From a virus: 26,706 bases of DNA. The position numbers and the translations under genes were made by a program. The stretch covers positions 1 to 26,706 of the IMG/VR virus record IMGVR_UViG_3300010392_000507. One strand, given 5' to 3'. Below are positions 9,136 to 19,893 of the stretch, in pieces. Within the stretch, counting starts at the first letter, position 1. Each line of letters opens with the position of its first letter. The notes under the pieces are model-generated. The model made no database searches and was not told where the DNA came from. It saw only the letters and a program-made list of their open reading frames with translations.

Positions 9136-10284
9136 TTAATAATGTTTTCTAACTAATAAATAATTATGCGCTCCTGTTCTCGCTTCTCTTGTCATGTTAT
9201 ATGCTTGTGTTGCGCTAATAACTGTCATAAAAACATACTTTCTTAAAGTATCTGTTAAGTTGGTTGTAGGAGTCCAAAACCTTCTAACTCCGCTAATATT
9301 AAAAGGAGCATAGTTTAGGGTTTCGTTCATTTCAGCGTTTGCGATTGTTAAATACTGCTCGAATAAAGGTATCATCCAATCGGAATAACCTCCCTGAGTA
9401 CTAGCGGCGGCATTATCAATAGCCGCGTTCCAACTATTAGTACCTTGTAGAACGTTGTACCACATCCAGCCAGTTAAATGGCATATAACTAAACCACTCG
9501 CGTAGATTTGAGTTCCTAAGTCGTCCGTTAATCTGTTCTTATTTCCAAAAGCATTATTTGAAACTAAAGTTAAAAAAGGGTTAGCCGCGCTTTGGTCGAG
9601 TTCTGCATAACTAACAGGAGAAGCCGGAGAGGTTGTATCATAACTACCGTTAGCAACGTGCCAAGCCTCGTCTCCGGTTCTATAAGATGTTAGTTGTCCG
9701 GTTGTAATTATGTTTTTATACGCTATTCCGCTTGTAACGTTGGGAGTACATACAAACGATGCTCCCGAAGCTACTTCATAAATAGTAACCCCGTCAGAAT
9801 CGGTAATCGTTACCGGCAAACAGGAAGGAATCGGAGTAACTCCGTCGATTGGTAAATCACATTTACCGTTGTCTTTTACTAATCTAAATTGAATAGACGC
9901 GATCCATCCGGACGCGACGTCCTGAGTCCTGTCGACTAACTTAGTTGCGCTGGGAGTTACGATAACTTTAGCATATCTCCAAGCGTCGTCGATGTTTATA
10001 TAGTTGATTAGGTCGCCTATAATCGCCAAAGTGTTAGACTCTATCTCGTGAGCGTTCTCGTTTCCTTTTAACACCTTGTCAATACAAGCTAACTGAATAG
10101 TTACGTTAATAAAATTAGGCTCGTAGGTCGCAGATTGAGCAACGGTTAAAATAGTCGCGTGAGTAATCTCGTTCGACTTGTATAACTCGACGATACTGTC
10201 TCCGTGATAGTAGGAGTTAACTTGTTCGTGAGCCTCACAAAGCGTTTTAAGTTGGTATAGTGCTTCCTTTAAAGATACGTACAT
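9136..10284 (-). CDS. Tail-terminator-like domain fused to an Lcl/DUF1566-like domain
   Basis: The 382-residue protein has two parts. Residues about 1-145 form a mixed alpha/beta domain that, by position after the portal and adaptor genes and by general pattern, resembles a tail-terminator/tail-completion protein. After a linker with PIPSCLPVTITDSDGVTIYE (about 150-170), residues about 215-382 resemble the Lcl/DUF1566 type domain: a SDWMIPLFEQY segment in place of the usual DW(R)LPT-E-L motif, a FWTPTTNLTDT segment like the W-[ST]-[ST]-T motif, and a C-terminal YLLVR. That fold is often used for surface or receptor contact. The junction with the adaptor is TAATG. The Lcl-like call is moderate; the N-terminal call relies largely on context. 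Confidence 0.6.
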   Translation of the reverse strand: MYVSLKEALYQLKTLCEAHEQVNSYYHGDSIVELYKSNEITHATILTVAQSATYEPNFINVTIQLACIDKVLKGNENAHEIESNTLAIIGDLINYINIDDAWRYAKVIVTPSATKLVDRTQDVASGWIASIQFRLVKDNGKCDLPIDGVTPIPSCLPVTITDSDGVTIYEVASGASFVCTPNVTSGIAYKNIITTGQLTSYRTGDEAWHVANGSYDTTSPASPVSYAELDQSAANPFLTLVSNNAFGNKNRLTDDLGTQIYASGLVICHLTGWMWYNVLQGTNSWNAAIDNAAASTQGGYSDWMIPLFEQYLTIANAEMNETLNYAPFNISGVRRFWTPTTNLTDTLRKYVFMTVISATQAYNMTREARTGAHNYLLVRKHY

Positions 10285-10793
10285 TATTTCCCAAACATTG
10301 TAAAGTTTTTACTATAACTATTGTCTTTTCCTTCCGGCTTAATTCCGTACTCGTTTGTATCCTCATACAAAGGATATAAATCCTCATTTTCGCAAAGGTA
10401 TCGTTTTAATCGATTACGATAGAACGTTAAGTCTTTATAGGTTATATCCTTGGTTCGCTCCATTTGATTGGAGGTATTCGCTAGATAGTTTTGTTCAGTA
10501 GCAATCCCGACTCCAATATTTCTAATCTCGGTAGTAATGGCGTCCGCGATTCTTAACTCGACCGAAATCGAAAGAACCATCGCAATATAATCATTAATAA
10601 GTGTTAACTCGTCTGCTGTTAAATCGTCGTCCTCCACTCCTTGAAGTAATCTCTCATACAATGCAGAACCGAGAACCGGTTCAATATACATATCCTGAGA
10701 GCGTCTAAGTACGTTTCTAATAACTTCGACCTCTACGTTAGTATGAATTAACGAGAGCCTTTTTAACGAGTCTATATCAATTAAATAATTCAT
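10284..10793 (-). CDS. Head-tail connector/adaptor protein
   Basis: The start at 10793 (MNYLIDIDSLKRLSLIHTNV...) is preferred to an upstream TTG at 10820 because it makes a TAATG junction with the portal gene, the pattern used at other junctions here. The ~169-residue product is an all-helical protein resembling the small head-completion (gp6-like, DUF6712-type) adaptors of Bacteroidota phages: a helix with LSLIHTNVEVEVIRNVLRR, EPVLGSALYERLLQG, then two long helices ending RNRLKRYLCENEDLYPLYED. Such proteins form a ring under the portal. Position directly after the portal supports this. Confidence 0.65.
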   Translation of the reverse strand: MNYLIDIDSLKRLSLIHTNVEVEVIRNVLRRSQDMYIEPVLGSALYERLLQGVEDDDLTADELTLINDYIAMVLSISVELRIADAITTEIRNIGVGIATEQNYLANTSNQMERTKDITYKDLTFYRNRLKRYLCENEDLYPLYEDTNEYGIKPEGKDNSYSKNFTMFGK

Positions 10794-12586
10794 TATTCTA
10801 AAATTATATTTTGTTGCCAATAGTGCCTACAGAAAGGAGTATTTCTATCTGTGTTAGGATTATGATACCATCCTCCGCGATAAAGCCAGACGTCGCGATC
10901 AACTAAGGCAGAAACTTGTTCGATTTCTCCTCGAGTATAAACTCTATTGAGTGCGATTAATTCTCTACAGAAACCGCGAGTTGTTGGAATTACTTCCGGT
11001 TGTCCTAACTCTGGTCTAACCTCGTAGGTATAAACTACAGAAAGAGTTACTTTGTCGTGTCCTGCTAGTAGCTGGATTCCGGCGTCGGTTACTTTGTTGC
11101 CCTTATAATGTCCTTCGCTTTTAAGGTTGTCTATCATTTGAGATAGCTTAGAAGCTGGTACATTTATCGCCTTACGAATAGTGTCGAAGTCGCTACCTTC
11201 GTGAAGCATAGACAAAACGTTTACTTGAATGTCCGTTACCTTATCAAATTTTTTGTATTTCTTTAAAATTCCTTCCTCGTTTAATCTCTTCGGGTTAGCC
11301 TCTTGAGTATGTAGAATCCTCATTCTCTTTTTACGCTTTCTTCCAAACTGCTTAAACGCTTCGACTACCGGATCGGTATTGGCTCCAAAGTTAAAAGTAT
11401 TGTTATTCGCTTTTTCCTCTTCCGGAAGGTCGAGAGAAACCTCTTTAAAACAGATGTCTCCATCTCTACCGAGTAATGTTTCCCAAATGTACTGCAAAGG
11501 CGTTACGATTGCCCTTTGACGATATTTAAAGTATCCGGACTTCATTAACTCATAAGATATTTTTAACTCCGTTGCTCCTCCGAGTTGCCCTTCGGTTTTA
11601 ATTCCGAATAACATAGGATTAGTAACAGAGTGAGATAACAGAATATTTTCTTTGTTGTCTTTAGATAACGCCATATAACGCTGGTCTAAATTATTCCCCG
11701 TTAGATTCGTTACCGTTGTCTCCTTATCCTTTCCATTGTTAAAGGTAGCGAACACCCCTCCAGCGTTTGAGGAGCCTTGTCCGGCTCTCCTAACGTCGTT
11801 TACGATGTCGTCTCTATCTGAGTCCTCGGTCGGTTGCCCGTTGTTAAAGTTTATGATAGTTCCTAACGAGAAGTTGTTATAAATTTCGTTTCTTCGGTAG
11901 TTGTTTATTTCGATGTCGGTTTCTATCGCTAAGATTCCTCCAGAGTAAGGAGGAGCCGGATAGATTGCCTTTGTTACCTTGCTTTTAATTTTGATTTGCT
12001 TCGGTTGCTCTTTATAGTAGACTATTCTCGAGCCTGTCAAATCCGAAGTATCTAGTTCTTTATAACCTCGAACTCCTTCCTTCTTATCGCTCCAATCCGC
12101 AGAAATATAATAGGCGAACTCCTCATCGTTGTAAGCCTCTCTCGCTTGTTCAAAAGGTATATGATCGACTTGAAAAGGCTTTTTATTAACAAAGTTGATA
12201 ACAAAACAATAACCGTTATACACTTCTAAGTCCTGAGACAACAACTCTGTTATTTCATCCATGTTATAATCGGAGTTCCCATTTCTTAGAAACCTTTCAA
12301 ACTCTTGTAACTGAGTCCCTTTGTATCCTAATCCTCCCGAAACTGTATAGTGAACCTTTTGTCTAATAACTCCGTTATGAATAGCGCAATTATAATAAAG
12401 AGACGCCAAATAATAAGGATAAAGATTGTCCGAACCCCATTTATAAATATTTAGCTTACGATCGAAGTTCTCCGTCGGGTTAACCGTCGGTAGTGTCTTA
12501 GTCGCGTCGTAAAACTCGTATTGTTTCGGAGTGCTTCCTTCCTGTCTAATAGGTTTTTGTGTATCTATTTTAATCGATTCGCTCAT
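10793..12586 (-). CDS. Portal protein fused to a minor-head (Mu F/SPP1 gp7-like) C-terminal domain
   Basis: The 597-residue protein has a portal region at about 30-400, with KWGSDNLYPYYLASLYYN (49-66), the clip/wing segments around YNGYCFVINF, and TNPMLFGIKTEGQLGGATEL leading to a helix KISYELMKSGYFKYRQRAIV typical of portals of this phylum. After it, about 435-500 looks like a small winged-helix insert (ILKKYKKFDKVTDIQVNVLS), and the last ~90 residues carry TTRGFCRELIALNRVYTR and LYRGGWYHNPNTD...PFCRHYW, the Cys/His-containing signature seen at the end of Mu gpF-like minor head proteins. The fusion would combine the DNA entry ring with the head-morphogenesis protein. The portal call is strong; the C-terminal call is moderate. 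Confidence 0.8.
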   Translation of the reverse strand: MSESIKIDTQKPIRQEGSTPKQYEFYDATKTLPTVNPTENFDRKLNIYKWGSDNLYPYYLASLYYNCAIHNGVIRQKVHYTVSGGLGYKGTQLQEFERFLRNGNSDYNMDEITELLSQDLEVYNGYCFVINFVNKKPFQVDHIPFEQAREAYNDEEFAYYISADWSDKKEGVRGYKELDTSDLTGSRIVYYKEQPKQIKIKSKVTKAIYPAPPYSGGILAIETDIEINNYRRNEIYNNFSLGTIINFNNGQPTEDSDRDDIVNDVRRAGQGSSNAGGVFATFNNGKDKETTVTNLTGNNLDQRYMALSKDNKENILLSHSVTNPMLFGIKTEGQLGGATELKISYELMKSGYFKYRQRAIVTPLQYIWETLLGRDGDICFKEVSLDLPEEEKANNNTFNFGANTDPVVEAFKQFGRKRKKRMRILHTQEANPKRLNEEGILKKYKKFDKVTDIQVNVLSMLHEGSDFDTIRKAINVPASKLSQMIDNLKSEGHYKGNKVTDAGIQLLAGHDKVTLSVVYTYEVRPELGQPEVIPTTRGFCRELIALNRVYTRGEIEQVSALVDRDVWLYRGGWYHNPNTDRNTPFCRHYWQQNIILE

Positions 12587-13787: not shown

Positions 13788-14759
13788 TTATGATGCTGGT
13801 AAAATCCATTTAACGAATTCGTTAGAATTAACATACTGAACACCTAAACGGTATTTAATATCTACGTGAATTTTATCCTCATCCTGAGAATAACCTACGA
13901 AGAAATCCTCCCAATCAGACTGCAAGTCAGTACCGATAAACATTCTGTCTAGTGGTCCTGCATAGATTGAGTTAGTTCCATCTAATCCGTGAACTAATTC
14001 GATAGTCGTAGTAGTTCCGTGTAACATAACCGAAAGGTTATCGTTGTTTGGATCGTAGTGGAAAAGGTTCGCGTTAGTTACCGCAGTTAAATATAAATCG
14101 TAAGTTTCTTTACCTACAAAGATTCTGTGATCTCTTCTCAATACTGGAGTCGGGATAGTGTTTCTAACCGATTGTAAGATAGCTATCACGTTAGCCGCAG
14201 TAATTGAAGCGATCGCCGTAGTATTTGCATTAACTACCGCCGCGTCAGCATCGAATAATTTCTTGAAACCATCGATTTTATTTAAGTTCGGAGCAACGTT
14301 CCCTAAAGAACCTTTCCAAATTAAATCCTCGTTAATCTCTTGGATTTTTCCGATTTGATGCGCGATAATTAAATCCTCGTAAGGCATTTGCTCCTGTCCG
14401 GCTCTGAATCCGTTAGGTAATCCTAACTGTCCCCAAGTATTAACCAAGTCCTCAGAGCAAAAATCTTGCTGTGATTTGATTGGTTTAACCGTCATTGCTT
14501 TGTCTGTTAAAGTAGTTGTACCACTTGCAGAACGTCCACAAGAACTCGCGTCCTGTAATACGATTGTATTATCTACTAGTTTAATTTCCTCAGAACCCTT
14601 AACTCCTTCCATGATTTGAACTAAAGACGCTGTTCGTCCTTCGTATATCATAGCTGGAATAATTTGTTCCGCTTGTTCGTCGACATAAGTTCCTAAACCG
14701 GTTACATCCCAGTTAAACTTTGCCTCGATTCTTTTTGCTAATTTGTTTCTTCTTGACAT
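13788..14759 (-). CDS. Major capsid protein (HK97-fold type)
   Basis: The 323-residue protein has the expected size, position (directly after the protease/scaffold) and pattern of an HK97-type major capsid protein without a long delta domain: an N-terminal arm with basic residues, a helix with EDLIIAHQIGKIQEINEDLIWKG (about 126-148), a DGFKKLF segment, RRDHRIFVGKETYDLYLTAV as the spine/A-domain transition, and a C-terminal strand region with YAGPLDRMFIGTDLQSDWED and YRLGVQYVNSNEF. The cleavage site cannot be placed with confidence. An extended AT-rich intergenic stretch upstream of the protease gene is the likely promoter region for this pair. Confidence 0.8.
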   Translation of the reverse strand: MSRRNKLAKRIEAKFNWDVTGLGTYVDEQAEQIIPAMIYEGRTASLVQIMEGVKGSEEIKLVDNTIVLQDASSCGRSASGTTTLTDKAMTVKPIKSQQDFCSEDLVNTWGQLGLPNGFRAGQEQMPYEDLIIAHQIGKIQEINEDLIWKGSLGNVAPNLNKIDGFKKLFDADAAVVNANTTAIASITAANVIAILQSVRNTIPTPVLRRDHRIFVGKETYDLYLTAVTNANLFHYDPNNDNLSVMLHGTTTTIELVHGLDGTNSIYAGPLDRMFIGTDLQSDWEDFFVGYSQDEDKIHVDIKYRLGVQYVNSNEFVKWILPAS

Positions 14760-14778: not shown

Positions 14779-15231
14779 TTATTTACTAGGCGTGGTTAAG
14801 TCCTTCCAAGTTTTTTTGTCTTTACGCTCGAATTTTTTCTTACCGTCAACTTTTGACTGTTCTAAGGCTTCAAACTTCGCCTCCATTTCTACTTTGTACG
14901 CTTCAAAGTTTTCGTTTAACGTCTTCATAACGTTAACAACTTCCGCTAAAGTTACATCCTCTAAGGCTTCCTCTCCTTCTTCTTCAACTTCTACAACTTC
15001 CGTTACCATACCGTCGGCATCGATAACGATAGTTCTTCCATCTTCTAGAACGTGAGAACCTTCCGGAGCCGCGATTTGATTTCCTTCGTCGTCAGTAATA
15101 AATACAGCCGTTCCGACCATAAGGTCTCCTTCGTATGTTAAAACAACGCCGTCAGTAGTCGTAGCTTCGGCGAACTTCTTCTCGTCTTTTCCGAAAACTA
15201 GCGTAAATAATGATTTTTTAGATTTACTCAT
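14779..15231 (-). CDS. Possible nested scaffold protein from an internal start
   Basis: An ATG at 15231-15229 begins MSKSKKSLFTLVFGKDEKKF within the protease frame. The bases before it (AATAATAAAAACCAAAACAA) are strongly A-rich, like the leaders of other genes here. The product would be a 150-residue scaffold protein without the protease, comparable to lambda Nu3 inside gene C. Not proven: the same DNA also encodes a low-complexity Asn/Lys linker in the full-length protein. Confidence 0.45.
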   Translation of the reverse strand: MSKSKKSLFTLVFGKDEKKFAEATTTDGVVLTYEGDLMVGTAVFITDDEGNQIAAPEGSHVLEDGRTIVIDADGMVTEVVEVEEEGEEALEDVTLAEVVNVMKTLNENFEAYKVEMEAKFEALEQSKVDGKKKFERKDKKTWKDLTTPSK

Positions 15232-15774
15232 TTTGTTTTGGTTTTTATTATTAGATTTAATTTTTACTGGAATCTGGTCGAATATACCCTCGACTGAAAA
15301 GCCGACATACTTTCCGGATTTAATCTCATTATAAAGGGCTTCGTTCTCTACATAGTAAGTCATAACATACGATCCGTTTTGGACGTTCTCGTCGTCGTTT
15401 GGCGGTCGCTTAGTATCCGAAACAAAGTAACCCTCAACGAAAGTAATTCCGTTAACCACCTTCTCCGAGTCGTGCATTAAGTTTACAGAACTTAACAACT
15501 GCTGTCTCGACATTTTTAGAACCATCTTTTCGACTTCCTTAGGCTCAAAGTATACGTAATACTCTCCGAGGTCGTGGTCGTGTCTAAAAATTAATTGATT
15601 TGCTGAGATAGCTACTCCAGTAATCATTCGCTTTGAATCGTTAAAATGGAGTTCTCTTTTTTGCTCTTTATTAAAAGCTAGAAGGCTCTTATTGTGAGCC
15701 GGTCTATCAACTAAAGCGTTGAAGGTCAGACCGGTTTCGTCTTCGAGGTCAATTATTAGTTTAAATACTTGCAT
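14779..15774 (-). CDS. XkdF-like prohead protease fused to a scaffold domain
   Basis: The 331-residue protein starts with an XkdF-type serine protease (Peptidase_S78_2): ALVDRPAHNKSLL at 20-32, MITGVAISANQLIFRHD at 50-66, NLMHDSEK at 98-105 with the putative catalytic His101, VEGYFVSD at 113-120 and GKYVGFSVEG at 154-163 with the putative Ser160. An Asn/Lys-rich joint (174-181) leads to a second part: a beta segment with the pattern of Bacteroidota scaffold proteins (TTDGVVLTYEGDLMVG), an acidic stretch, and a coiled coil (about 285-320). This layout of protease then scaffold is classical for capsid maturation genes. An internal ATG at codon 182 may start the scaffold alone (see next entry). 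Confidence 0.78.
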   Translation of the reverse strand: MQVFKLIIDLEDETGLTFNALVDRPAHNKSLLAFNKEQKRELHFNDSKRMITGVAISANQLIFRHDHDLGEYYVYFEPKEVEKMVLKMSRQQLLSSVNLMHDSEKVVNGITFVEGYFVSDTKRPPNDDENVQNGSYVMTYYVENEALYNEIKSGKYVGFSVEGIFDQIPVKIKSNNKNQNKMSKSKKSLFTLVFGKDEKKFAEATTTDGVVLTYEGDLMVGTAVFITDDEGNQIAAPEGSHVLEDGRTIVIDADGMVTEVVEVEEEGEEALEDVTLAEVVNVMKTLNENFEAYKVEMEAKFEALEQSKVDGKKKFERKDKKTWKDLTTPSK

Positions 15775-15850: not shown

Positions 15851-16525
15851 TTAATCAAAGTACTTTTTAAGGTCGTAGATTTCGTTAGCTAGTTCTATCT
15901 GACGCCCTTCGTTCCTTGAGTGTTTTGAATAAATAGAGTCGTTTACAACTTGTGGTTTAATGAATCCAGCCTCGTGAGGAAGTATAACGATTTTCTTTCC
16001 TTGCTTCTTCGCTTCGAGTCCGAAAACGATATCGCTCATACATTGATCCGGCGAGTTATAGATTTCAGTTGGCTTAAAGTATCTGGTATCGAACGCGGTT
16101 ACTCCGGTTCCGGATACATCAATATAATAGGCTCCTTCGACTGTGTTCGCACAATGGAAGAACTCGTGTCCTCGGTAATAACTTACGTCCTTATCAACTA
16201 AAATCCTTCCGTGATAAGTTACAATAGTCCCGTACTTTTCAATCCCTTGTTTCATATCCCTAACGAGCGTCGGAGGGTAAATAATATCATCGTCTAAACA
16301 AATATAAATCTCGTCCTGCTCTATAATACTCAATCCGTAAAACTTTCCGTTATCTGTTAGGTCGTCCCCTTGGAAATAGGTATGTTTTTTAATGAAGGTC
16401 GGAACGTAATCGAAGCCATTAAGATAGATTCTTATTTCGTCCGCTTGTCCTTTTAAACTTTCGAGCGTTGCGCCTAGTTGGTCGATTCTGCTCGGCATCG
16501 TTGCGATGTTTATCGTTGTTCTCAT
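15851..16525 (-). CDS. GT-A type glycosyltransferase (family 2-like)
   Basis: The ATG at 16525, which makes an ATGA overlap with the upstream gene, is preferred to a TTG at 16534, giving about 224 residues. The protein begins INIATMPSRIDQL, continues with DNGKFYGL (58-65) and IYICLDDDIIYPP (73-85) carrying the DxD metal/sugar-nucleotide motif at 77-80, HGRIL at 105-109, FHC near 123-125 and a SGTGVTAFDT segment, the pattern of a small GT-A family seen in capsule/LPS clusters. It would transfer a nucleotide-activated sugar to an acceptor in the cytoplasm. It lies in a three-gene cassette with another glycosyltransferase and a sulfotransferase-like gene, inside the virion gene block. Confidence 0.75.
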   Translation of the reverse strand: MRTTINIATMPSRIDQLGATLESLKGQADEIRIYLNGFDYVPTFIKKHTYFQGDDLTDNGKFYGLSIIEQDEIYICLDDDIIYPPTLVRDMKQGIEKYGTIVTYHGRILVDKDVSYYRGHEFFHCANTVEGAYYIDVSGTGVTAFDTRYFKPTEIYNSPDQCMSDIVFGLEAKKQGKKIVILPHEAGFIKPQVVNDSIYSKHSRNEGRQIELANEIYDLKKYFD

Positions 16526-17148
16526 ATATACCAACTTCTAATGGTTGTTATTTGTTCTTTCCTCATATCCTGATAAGCCTTAGATTTGTTTCCGATACTC
16601 TTTTGCTCCTGATGTAATCGGTAGTAATATAAAACCTTATCAACGTAGCCTATTTTAAATCCGTGCGACAACGCTCGAAGGTTTAACTCGTACTCTTCGC
16701 CAGTCCATAGAGACTCATTAAAAAGCCCTATCTCCTCGAATACGCTCCTTCTATACATTAAGGAACCTCCATGAATATAGTTATGTGTTATTAAACTGTT
16801 TAGGCTTACGTTCTTTTTTGGAGGTCTGTAAATCAAACCATTTTGAACTAATCCCGAGAAACTCTTCGCGTTTCCATGTATAAAGTCTATTCGCTTATTA
16901 AAGCCTTTTAAGGAACTTTCTATCGAGTCGGGAGGTAGTATATCATCGTCGCAGAGATACTTTATAAAATCGCCGCTAGACTTCCTTATCCCGTTGTTTA
17001 GATTCTCAGAAACTCCGGCGTTTCCTTGTGATAAAATTAACTCGACGTTTTTGTGAGTTTGATTCTCTACCGAACGGATCGCCTCGTCTAACCAGCCTCT
17101 ATCCTCTCGATATGGAATTATTACGCTTACCTTTTTAGAGTTGTTCAT
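16522..17148 (-). CDS. Family 2 glycosyltransferase
   Basis: The ATG at 17148 (MNNSKKVSVIIPYRE) is preferred to an in-frame TTG at 17163; it gives 208 residues. Motifs in order: VSVIIPYRED at 7-16, NQTHKNVELILSQG at 29-42, CDDD at 66-69 (DxD metal/UDP site), GGSLMYRRSVFEEIG at 127-141, GEEYELNLRA at 150-159 (acidic catalytic region) and YRLHQEQKS at 176-184. This is the standard layout of GT2 enzymes of the LPS/capsule type. It overlaps the sulfotransferase-like gene by 14 bases and the next glycosyltransferase by ATGA, so the three genes are made together. Confidence 0.85.
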   Translation of the reverse strand: MNNSKKVSVIIPYREDRGWLDEAIRSVENQTHKNVELILSQGNAGVSENLNNGIRKSSGDFIKYLCDDDILPPDSIESSLKGFNKRIDFIHGNAKSFSGLVQNGLIYRPPKKNVSLNSLITHNYIHGGSLMYRRSVFEEIGLFNESLWTGEEYELNLRALSHGFKIGYVDKVLYYYRLHQEQKSIGNKSKAYQDMRKEQITTIRSWYI

Positions 17149-17728
17149 AGTTAAATTTTTCAAAGATTTTTTTACTAACGTTTTTATTAATAAAAGAAAT
17201 GTCCTCCTTTGTTAATTTAGATTTCCACTCTTCCTCGAGGTAATACTTTAGCCGGTTAAACTTTCCGATTAGGTTTCCTCCGGAGTTAACCTCTTTGTCG
17301 ATATTCTTAAACGGTCGGAGTTTTAAATCGTAGTGCTTCGACAATTCTTTTAAAATAGCCTCGGGATTTCTTTGCAAGTCTTCCGACCTAATTAAAAAGG
17401 CGTTACCTCTCTGCTCTAGAAAGTCGATATAACTTTTGTAAATGTCGTTATACCTTTCGACCGCGTTCGAGTACTTCCTCCACTCGGTACGAAGAAACTC
17501 GTCGAATGAAAGGTAAATATACTTTTGTCTAAACTGGAAACTTCCGTGAGGCTTCTTCCAGAGGCTTAATAACCACGAATAAGGATTTTTAACCAATACG
17601 ATATGAATATCGCCGTTTGTGTATGTCGGGAATTGGTGCGACTTGGAAACCTCAACTCGAAAGTTAGTCTCGATTAATTTAACGAGGTAGTTGTTGCACG
17701 AGTTCCGCTCTCCGTAAATCTTTATCAT
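17135..17728 (-). CDS. Sulfotransferase-like protein
   Basis: The 197-residue protein has the P-loop-like start and 3'-phosphate site pattern of PAPS-dependent sulfotransferases: YGERNSCNNYLVKLIETNF at 5-23 (the place of the 5'-phosphosulfate-binding loop), KSHQFPTYTNGDIHIVLVKN at 29-48 and NPYSWLLSLW at 48-57 (the R/K-x-P...S motif), then FLIRSEDLQRNPEAIL at 111-126. The usual GT pair of the loop is CN here, so activity is not assured. Genes of this type occur in surface-glycan clusters. The start overlaps the tape measure stop as ATGA, so the cassette is tied to tail gene expression. A role in sulfating virion glycans is inference. Confidence 0.68.
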   Translation of the reverse strand: MIKIYGERNSCNNYLVKLIETNFRVEVSKSHQFPTYTNGDIHIVLVKNPYSWLLSLWKKPHGSFQFRQKYIYLSFDEFLRTEWRKYSNAVERYNDIYKSYIDFLEQRGNAFLIRSEDLQRNPEAILKELSKHYDLKLRPFKNIDKEVNSGGNLIGKFNRLKYYLEEEWKSKLTKEDISFINKNVSKKIFEKFNYEQL

Positions 17729-19893
17729 AATTGAGACGTTGATACGCTTTGCTCGTTCTCTTCTACCACTCGAGTAATATCGGAAGCTAGAACCGTTACT
17801 CGTCTTTCTCCGGTATCCGTTGGAGGATTTAAAAGGTCGTCTGTTAAAGTTCCCTCTCCGGTTTCTCCGGTTTGCTGGTTTTGGAAGTCCGTACTTCCTC
17901 CGCCTCCGCCGCCTGTAATATTTCCAGCGATTTGAGGTATTGTTATTCCTCCTCCGCCCGGCAATTTAGCTTGTGCTAAAGCGTTACGAGCGTTAACCAT
18001 ACCGGCTAAAACCGTACTAACTCCCGTTGCTATTGCTGGGATATTAGACGGGAACGGTAGTCCTGCTCCGGCTTTAATTGCTCCGGAGATTCCTACTCCC
18101 GTATCGATTGCAATCTGAGCAATCGCGACAGTCTTTTGGAACGCGGCGTTCTCCCCGCTTAGTTGCGATATACTTCCTAAAATATTGGCGGTAGACTGAG
18201 CAACCGAAAACGCGGATTGTATTTTCGCGTCGTTAATCTTTTGAGTGAACTCCGCCTCCTCTTTTTGTATCTTTTTACTCGCGTTACTGTTTTGCTGTTC
18301 GATTAAATTCTTTCTTAGCCCGAACTCTTCATCGGTTAAATTCTCCTGCTCCTTTTGGAGTTGCAAGTCTTCTAACTGAGCCTCGAAGTTTTCTCGCTGG
18401 ATATCTCTTCTAGCGGCGAAGAATTCTCTCGCTTCTTCCGGAGAGGAGTTGTCGTCGAGTTCTCCTTGTGATTCCTCCTTTATTTGGAGTCTCAGGTCTC
18501 GTAGTGCTTTCATTTGCTCTCCTTCGGCGATTAACTTATCGTCCGCGAATTGTTGCTCAATCTCTGCGATTTCTTCCGCCTGTTTAATCATTAACTCTTT
18601 TTCGAGTTCGGCGTTTCCTTCGGCGAGAGCGAACTTCTCATCGTACTGTTTTACTAAATCCGATATCTCTTTTTCCTGCGCGGACTGTCTTAACTCCTCC
18701 ATTAACTCGAATTGAGCATCCGCTCTCATTTGCTCCTCCTCCATTAACTTTTGTTCCTCTTCGGCTTTCTTCTCTCCAGCTTTTACCCGTTCGTCGACTT
18801 CCTTTTTAAAGTTGTCGGTTACTTTCTTTTGTTGAGCGATTTCCGCGACAGCCATTTCTCGAGATAAGCGCTTAAATTCTTCATTCAATTCCTTCGCTCT
18901 CGCCTTTTGGTCGTCGTTAAACTCGCCTGTTAACTTGGCTAACTGGATTAACGCTTTTCCTTCGGCTCTAACTCTTTCAATTAACGCTTTTCGCTTCTCT
19001 TGTTCAAGTTCAAAAGTTGCTTTTCCTGCGGCTTGTGCTTTTGCTATCTCAAAATCGTAACGGTTGTTAATTGCTTCCTCCTCATCCTTCGCCGCTTGGA
19101 GTCTAGCCTCTGCTAACTTCTTAGCGATTTCGGTTTGTTCGCTCTCTAAAATCCCGAGAGTCCTTAATCCTTCTTTGACTAATTCGATTTGCTTAATAAA
19201 GGCGTCTACTACCGGCTGTAAAAACTCAAAACGTTCGATTGTTTTGTTGATCCAATTAACAAACTCCTTCCAGTTAGCAATCAACGCTCCAATTAGTACT
19301 ACTATCGCTCCGATACCAGTAGCAATCAACGCTAACCTAAACAATTTTAACGCTCCGGTAGATGTTCCAACGGCTAAACCGTAGGCTTTTTGTACTGCGG
19401 CTAATCCTTTGGTTATTACGCTATTACGTTGAAGCAATGAAGCCCGAGCCGCCTCTAGTGAGTTCAATAATTGTTGAGCCGCTTGGAGTTTTACCATCGT
19501 CTCGAGAAGTTTCTCGTTCTCAACTCCTACAATAGCGGAAACCGCTTGAAATGCTCCGTAACTATTAATAGCTGTTTGAGATATTCCTACAACACTCCTA
19601 AAAGTATCGAAGTCCGTATTGTTTCGGGTTACTAATTCGTTAACCTTGTCGAGTTCTCCTTGTAGTTGAGCGGCTTTTTGGATTGCCTCTTTTCCGATTG
19701 GCGTCTCTGCTCCAGCCTTTAACGCGGCGGACTTATAGAGTTCAATCTTTTTAGTCATTGCCGCGACTACTTCGCCGTTCTCCTTTGTTTGTTCCTCAAG
19801 GTCTACGAACTTCGCCTCGACTTCTTCAATCGCGTTTACCGAGTCGTCCGCGTCAATACGGAGGTTTAATATTACATCTTTTTCCTCTGCCAT
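17725..19893 (-). CDS. Tail tape measure protein
   Basis: The 722-residue protein has the hallmarks of a tape measure: long helical, Ala/Glu/Lys/Gln-rich coiled coil (about 20-180 and 250-560), one hydrophobic membrane-like segment (about 184-208, LALIATGIGAIVVLIGALIA), a second Ala/Gly-rich hydrophobic region (about 575-640, with GTGVSTVLAG type motifs) and a Gly-rich, disordered C-terminus (about 650-690). At roughly 1.5 Angstrom per residue, the general rule for these proteins, it would predict a tail near 100 nm; that is an estimate. It suggests a long-tailed (siphovirus-like) virion. No peptidase or lysozyme domain is obvious in it. Confidence 0.85.
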   Translation of the reverse strand: MAEEKDVILNLRIDADDSVNAIEEVEAKFVDLEEQTKENGEVVAAMTKKIELYKSAALKAGAETPIGKEAIQKAAQLQGELDKVNELVTRNNTDFDTFRSVVGISQTAINSYGAFQAVSAIVGVENEKLLETMVKLQAAQQLLNSLEAARASLLQRNSVITKGLAAVQKAYGLAVGTSTGALKLFRLALIATGIGAIVVLIGALIANWKEFVNWINKTIERFEFLQPVVDAFIKQIELVKEGLRTLGILESEQTEIAKKLAEARLQAAKDEEEAINNRYDFEIAKAQAAGKATFELEQEKRKALIERVRAEGKALIQLAKLTGEFNDDQKARAKELNEEFKRLSREMAVAEIAQQKKVTDNFKKEVDERVKAGEKKAEEEQKLMEEEQMRADAQFELMEELRQSAQEKEISDLVKQYDEKFALAEGNAELEKELMIKQAEEIAEIEQQFADDKLIAEGEQMKALRDLRLQIKEESQGELDDNSSPEEAREFFAARRDIQRENFEAQLEDLQLQKEQENLTDEEFGLRKNLIEQQNSNASKKIQKEEAEFTQKINDAKIQSAFSVAQSTANILGSISQLSGENAAFQKTVAIAQIAIDTGVGISGAIKAGAGLPFPSNIPAIATGVSTVLAGMVNARNALAQAKLPGGGGITIPQIAGNITGGGGGGSTDFQNQQTGETGEGTLTDDLLNPPTDTGERRVTVLASDITRVVEENEQSVSTSQL

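Follow-up and report, generated by a model that had tools for sequence, protein, structure and literature searches.

Why does a phage carry three genes for sugar-modifying enzymes in the middle of its virion gene block? The question is raised by a 26.7-kb IMG/VR virus record, analysed here over its whole length and called the window, which has its structural genes on the minus strand. The initial annotation had described three coupled genes between the tape measure and the protease, encoding a sulfotransferase-like protein (ST) and two glycosyltransferases. It was right about their coordinates, strand, order and coupling, and both motifs to which it pointed are present, CDDD in the GT2 enzyme and LDDD in the third enzyme. 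The cassette is followed downstream by the protease, then the likely major capsid protein, then the portal:

17725..19893, minus strand: tail tape measure protein, upstream of the cassette (PHROG tail length tape measure, E 7e-9)
17135..17728, minus strand: predicted sulfotransferase-fold protein, 197 aa (Pfam PF00685 below cut-off, AF2, Foldseek)
16522..17148, minus strand: GT2-family glycosyltransferase with CDDD, 208 aa from the ATG at 17148 (PF00535, E 1.6e-13)
15851..16525, minus strand: homologue of KfiA and of the heparosan-synthase C-domain, 224 aa from the ATG at 16525 (phmmer, profile against the PDB)
14779..15774, minus strand: XkdF-like serine protease / head maturation protein (Peptidase_S78_2), the downstream neighbour (PF14550, E 1.2e-8; phrog_24921, E 2.6e-36)
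13788..14759, minus strand: probable major capsid protein (weak PHROG virion structural match, E 0.0023, and synteny with relatives)
10793..12586, minus strand: portal protein (phrog_33693 portal, E 1.7e-28)

The tape measure stop and the ST start overlap in an ATGA (17725-17728), the GT2 gene, starting at ATG 17148, overlaps the ST gene by 14 bases, and a second ATGA (16522-16525) joins the GT2 stop to the start of the KfiA-like gene. For the latter two genes ATG starts were taken, the TTG starts in the program's list of open reading frames being slightly long. None of the three proteins in the window has a transmembrane segment. Nonlabens phage P12024L/S, a phage of marine Flavobacteria, is a distant relative of this lineage (24% identity in the protease). 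Elsewhere in the window, a PAPS-reductase-like phage protein (696-1559; phrog_424, E 2e-39) shares the contig with the PAPS-type sulfotransferase and is probably unrelated to it. The protein encoded at 9136-10284, downstream of the portal and conserved in L002, L038 and L055, has a sub-threshold match to the Lcl_C domain and is a candidate adhesin or glycan-binding virion protein.

The enzyme classes that had been proposed are supported, for the two glycosyltransferases by homology and for the ST by its predicted fold. At the level of sequence, the assignment of the 15851-16525 product as a homologue of KfiA and of the C-terminal half of PmHS2 is firm. A phmmer search of the PDB with this protein finds heparosan synthase B (8vh7, residues 302-526, E 1.4e-19) and KfiA (5z8b, E 1.5e-9), and a profile of 16 phage relatives matches 8vh7 (E 3.2e-46), KfiA (E 8.9e-32) and nothing else, the motifs DDD (LDDDIIYPP), GTG(V) and MSD being aligned. 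In K5 capsule synthesis KfiA acts as the alpha-GlcNAc transferase; its CAZy family is GT45. The gene at 16522-17148 can be assigned just as firmly to an ordinary GT2: the protein scores 51.4 bits against a cut-off of 23.3 for Glycos_transf_2, the Asp pair of its DxD-type motif is invariant in 16 sequences, and its profile matches many GT2 structures in the PDB, the best being the second glycosyltransferase domain of chondroitin synthase (residues 433-591, E 1e-13). This profile has a weak match to the N-terminal half of PmHS2 (E 1.9e-5, spanning 39 residues).

Judged by Pfam, the ST is the least certain of the three enzymes, with an E value of 0.0017 for Sulfotransfer_1. Structure prediction, which the initial annotation had recommended, points to a sulfotransferase fold, and we grade this model-based assignment as good. 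The AF2 model obtained with a 5-row alignment (the window protein and four viral homologues) has a pLDDT of 79 and a pTM of 0.77, against a pLDDT of 35 from the single sequence, and when it was compared with the PDB by Foldseek, the top 50 matches were all sulfotransferases (best E 2.4e-5, probability 0.97-1.00). The family profile has ten matches in the PDB, all weak and all sulfotransferases. Ser55 and His31 are invariant in a 6-row alignment. The 5'-PSB-like loop reads GERNSCNNYL in the window against the family consensus GERNSGTNYL, and the 3'-PB-like loop reads KNPYSWLLS against (R/K)DPxxWLxS. Activity is not assured, because SCNN stands in place of SGTN and Lys in place of the 3' Arg, and the window ST may be weak or inactive owing to these substituted PAPS-loop residues.

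Homologues of the ST are found on alphaproteobacterial plasmids (best E 5e-14), with the loops GERNSGTNYL and (R/K)xPxxWLxS in common. On plasmid pAU20d of Aureimonas sp. AU20 (L074:2501-4083), a hypothetical homologue directly adjoins cysC, the gene for APS kinase, which makes PAPS; this neighbourhood suggests that the unannotated family is PAPS-dependent. Further plasmid homologues adjoin GT2 genes or sit in an exopolysaccharide locus, and other viral homologues occur on unrelated contigs, some adjoining ligase-like genes.

In isolated phages, direct searches returned no homologue of the ST or of GT45, and only distant GT2s. When viral contigs were scanned with the single ST or GT45 sequence there was no match, and alignment-based scans did yield matches; for the glycosyltransferases, alignment-guided scans over 2.9 million viral contigs gave 47 GT45 loci and 22 GT2 loci. 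Among 84,980 genomes scanned for GT45 with narrow patterns there was one match, on a contig also encoding TerL and therefore probably of phage origin, and bacterial homologues are possible. Besides TerL and a GT45 homologue, a contig binned under Candidatus Peregrinibacteria (L072, CALMES010000119.1) carries a gene for a DNA cytosine methyltransferase-like protein; this contig probably comes from a phage and was wrongly binned in a MAG.

The GT2-GT45 pair is present in about 50 uncultured phage contigs. GT2 is followed by GT45 in most annotated loci, often with 1-2 genes between, and the order in L002 and L003 is that of the window. About 18 contigs encode a single fused GT2-GT45 protein of ~410 aa with the domain order of heparosan synthase (in L018 the two halves are 44-47% identical to the GT2 and GT45 of the window), and we therefore take both enzymes to act together. 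Both genes are under purifying selection, with pN of 0.21-0.24 versus pS of 0.79-0.87 between the window and L002, like virion genes. The co-occurrence in related phages that the initial annotation had proposed to survey thus extends to the pair, which recurs in dozens of contigs; the ST is not conserved with it, and one conserved three-gene unit was rejected on this ground. No other phage was found with the window ST at this position, and it has no relative in other GT2-GT45 cassettes.

In most loci the glycosyltransferase genes lie in a structural context, that is, in head/tail or packaging modules. One site of the pair is the junction of TerL with the first tail gene, and a second is the tape measure-protease junction (the window, L002, L050, L038, L055 and probably L006). 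Where the head module is of a different, HK97 type, the pair lies between TerL and portal-protease-capsid, as in L059, or adjoins the prohead protease, as in L063. Placement at the TerL-tail gene, tape measure-protease or TerL-portal-protease-capsid junction speaks for a role in the virion. The GT45 tree calls for no fewer than two moves from one virion-operon junction to another. The divergence of GT45 is correlated with that of a tail protein (r 0.81, 24 phages, 0 of 2000 permutations); correlations of GT2 distances were left out, as the GT2 set holds cross-hits to GT45 domains. Among the relatives, the junction with a structural gene is overlapping or shorter than 10 bases in 17 of 31 cases upstream and in 29 of 34 downstream. 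Given these tight junctions, the layout of the cassette is not that of an isolated moron. Speaking against a role in the virion, there are also a few contigs where the pair is away from structural genes, near NinG and an exonuclease (L021/L030), near a helicase (L039) or near a sigma factor and the terminase small subunit (L042/L043).

The cassette is accessory, a module acquired by an operon that is otherwise tight and in which tape measure and protease, where both are present, are usually 4-90 bases apart. Relatives were selected on TerL only, taking the 80 best out of at least 577 contigs, and in 63 of these 80 TerL and the first tail gene can both be seen. The site between the two is without GT2 and GT45 in 60 of the 63, and because of this absence the cassette is considered dispensable. 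GT45 is present in two of the remaining three (L040 and L084, the latter being the contig of L003, both already known from the GT45 scan), and the third (L092) has GT2 with a GT-B-like protein. The initial annotation had counted absence from close relatives that share the virion proteins against its own reading; such absence is seen in part, for those 60 contigs at the TerL-tail site.

Relatives without the cassette, together with unrelated genes at the same junctions and an ST that has no counterpart in other cassettes, would also be expected if late-operon junctions were non-specific moron hot spots that gather sugar genes of host origin sharing no target, so that the three genes need not cooperate. 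We consider this improbable, as GT2 and GT45 co-occur and fuse, the divergence of GT45 tracks that of the tail protein, and glycan enzymes are the neighbours in many cassettes. A Pfam census of 75 cassette-region proteins, a sample that includes some structural genes, counted nine rhamnosyltransferases, several methyltransferases (three of them FkbM), three hexapeptide transferases, two PIG-L GlcNAc deacetylases, two GT25 enzymes, and one each of formyltransferase, RfbT-like protein and GT11 (fucosyl-) transferase. From these family assignments, the tailoring repertoire beside the pair appears typical of glycans. Different sulfotransferase-like genes are found in or beside the pair in three other phage loci:

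L009, 6083-6703: sulfotransferase-like gene, PF03567 above cut-off, unrelated by BLAST to the window ST
L036/L049, 9390-10004: sulfotransferase-like gene, RSGTTW/RSGSTA-type loop by eye, no Pfam sulfotransferase match
L045, 7670-8158: sulfotransferase-like gene, RSGTTW/RSGSTA-type loop by eye, no Pfam sulfotransferase match

Other genes of these regions were noted in passing. A PIG-L GlcNAc de-N-acetylase (L069:3396-4010, E 1.6e-11) belongs to a gene group downstream of GT2 and fits a GlcNAc-containing glycan. A conserved protein of ~305 aa, without Pfam match, is encoded upstream of the GT2-GT45 fusion in L018 (7038-7967) and 15 relatives, and also in L092 (11213-12088), where GT2 is present and GT45 absent; on visual inspection it resembles a GT-B glycosyltransferase. 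A family of ~210 aa occurs in 13 cassette loci (among them L014:5124-5834, L008:7999-8592, L023:114-737 and L045:6230-6859), has a conserved C-terminal HG(D/A)H(E/D/P/K)S.MH...R..(N/T)PLIS and no Pfam match for the member scanned, and is probably another glycosyltransferase.

What, then, is the acceptor of the sugars? The tailoring enzymes are of the kinds that O-antigen/capsule loci encode, the product of KfiA and PmHS2 is capsular heparosan, and plasmid homologues of the ST family keep company with exopolysaccharide or GT2 genes, all of which would suit a late change to the capsule or surface polysaccharide of the infected host, for superinfection exclusion or for freeing progeny from re-adsorption to receptors. 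We regard this as rather unlikely. The three enzymes are without a transmembrane segment and without a transporter or flippase gene among them, the cassette is embedded in structural operons of several phage lineages, and late expression would leave little time for surface remodelling. Also, no integrase scored above the family threshold in the window and 30 related viral records, which are partial or of unknown completeness (one weak sub-threshold match in G027). Lysogenic conversion by a gtrABC-type O-antigen cassette was rejected for the missing transmembrane segments and the lack of an above-threshold integrase in these 31 records. Together with the position of the cassette inside structural and packaging modules, this agrees with the initial annotation, which had preferred the virion to lysogenic conversion.

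DNA is another conceivable acceptor. Virus-encoded glycosyltransferases are known to act on modified DNA bases (Pyle 2024, as cited in PMC12619734). Hydroxymethylated bases are a frequent target of phage glycosyltransferases, and in the distantly related Nonlabens phage P12024L a TET/JBP gene adjoins one annotated as an HMC-glucosyltransferase, so that glycosylation, with or without sulfation, of modified bases had to be considered. The same 31 viral records, several of them >30 kb and many of them fragments, hold no base hydroxymethylase of the TET/JBP or thymidylate-synthase type, and the TET/JBP model does detect its target in P12024L, which served as positive control; moreover, the cassette is located with structural, not replication genes. 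This explanation is very improbable in our view, and a DNA hypermodification cassette was rejected for want of a base hydroxymethylase in these possibly partial records.

The best explanation, to which we assign a probability of about 60%, is that the cassette is expressed late and serves to glycosylate a virion protein. Cytosolic enzymes that lack transmembrane segments and are translated together with virion proteins have the best opportunity to do so. The soluble glycosyltransferases would be translated along with the tail and head genes, and the glycan would be built in the host cytosol on a new structural protein, before or during assembly. GT2 would add one sugar first, and the KfiA-like GT45 enzyme would then most likely add alpha-GlcNAc from UDP-GlcNAc, an order suggested by gene order and fusion. 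Finally, the ST would move sulfate from PAPS onto the glycan, as a variable terminal cap, a role proposed because of its swappable position. Sulfation of the virion glycan by this putative enzyme with altered cofactor residues is plausible. We infer the virion-protein acceptor, the identities of the sugars, the order of action and the activity of the ST from the genes and their context. A bolder version, which we put forward as speculative and quite unlikely, is that the phage builds a GAG-like oligosaccharide on a virion protein (uronic acid or similar by GT2, alpha-GlcNAc by the KfiA-type enzyme) and sulfates it to a heparan-sulfate-like, negatively charged coat, at least four loci having acquired different sulfotransferase-like genes.

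The breadth and chemistry of protein glycosylation in phage particles are poorly known. If virion decoration is true, sugar coats of virions would be common and chemically diversified, possibly for mask or adhesin variation, and GT2, GT45 and ST might be useful as compact GAG-type tools. Virion glycosylation is already known in mycobacteriophages; we have not found the GT2-GT45-ST enzyme set or sulfation described. A literature search, made mostly without subscription journals, gave nothing matching a phage sulfotransferase with virion proteins or heparosan-type glycosyltransferases in phages, and sulfation of a virion, if true, would be new as far as this literature goes.

Phage-encoded sulfotransferases as such have been reported, including those of cyanophages (PMC8290583). 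The window ST resembles PAPS-dependent sulfotransferases (PF00685/PF13469), cyanophage ones included, in predicted fold and in the position of a P-loop-type motif, but differs in being below the Pfam cut-off, short (197 aa), altered in PAPS-loop residues and coupled to two glycosyltransferases in a virion operon. In the heparosan systems PmHS2 and KfiA-KfiC (E. coli K5), the GlcNAc-transferase half is homologous to the third enzyme of the window. The fusions in its relatives have the domain order of PmHS2, whereas the window has separate genes; the fused phage proteins, at ~410 aa, are shorter than the solved chain of 552 aa, and no export system is seen. The window GT2 is not specifically KfiC-like, its best match being the chondroitin synthase domain. 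In mycobacteriophages, according to Freeman 2023 as cited in PMC11600133 and PMC12363180, glycosyltransferase genes glycosylate capsid and tail tube, and virion glycosylation weakens antibody responses. As described in these accounts, Che8, Corndog and Myrna have, like the phages studied here, phage-encoded tandem glycosyltransferase genes, which in cluster O adjoin an O-methyltransferase. The present system, known from its genes alone, differs from them in phage lineage, in its GT45/KfiA-type enzyme, in its embedding in structural operons and in its sulfotransferase.
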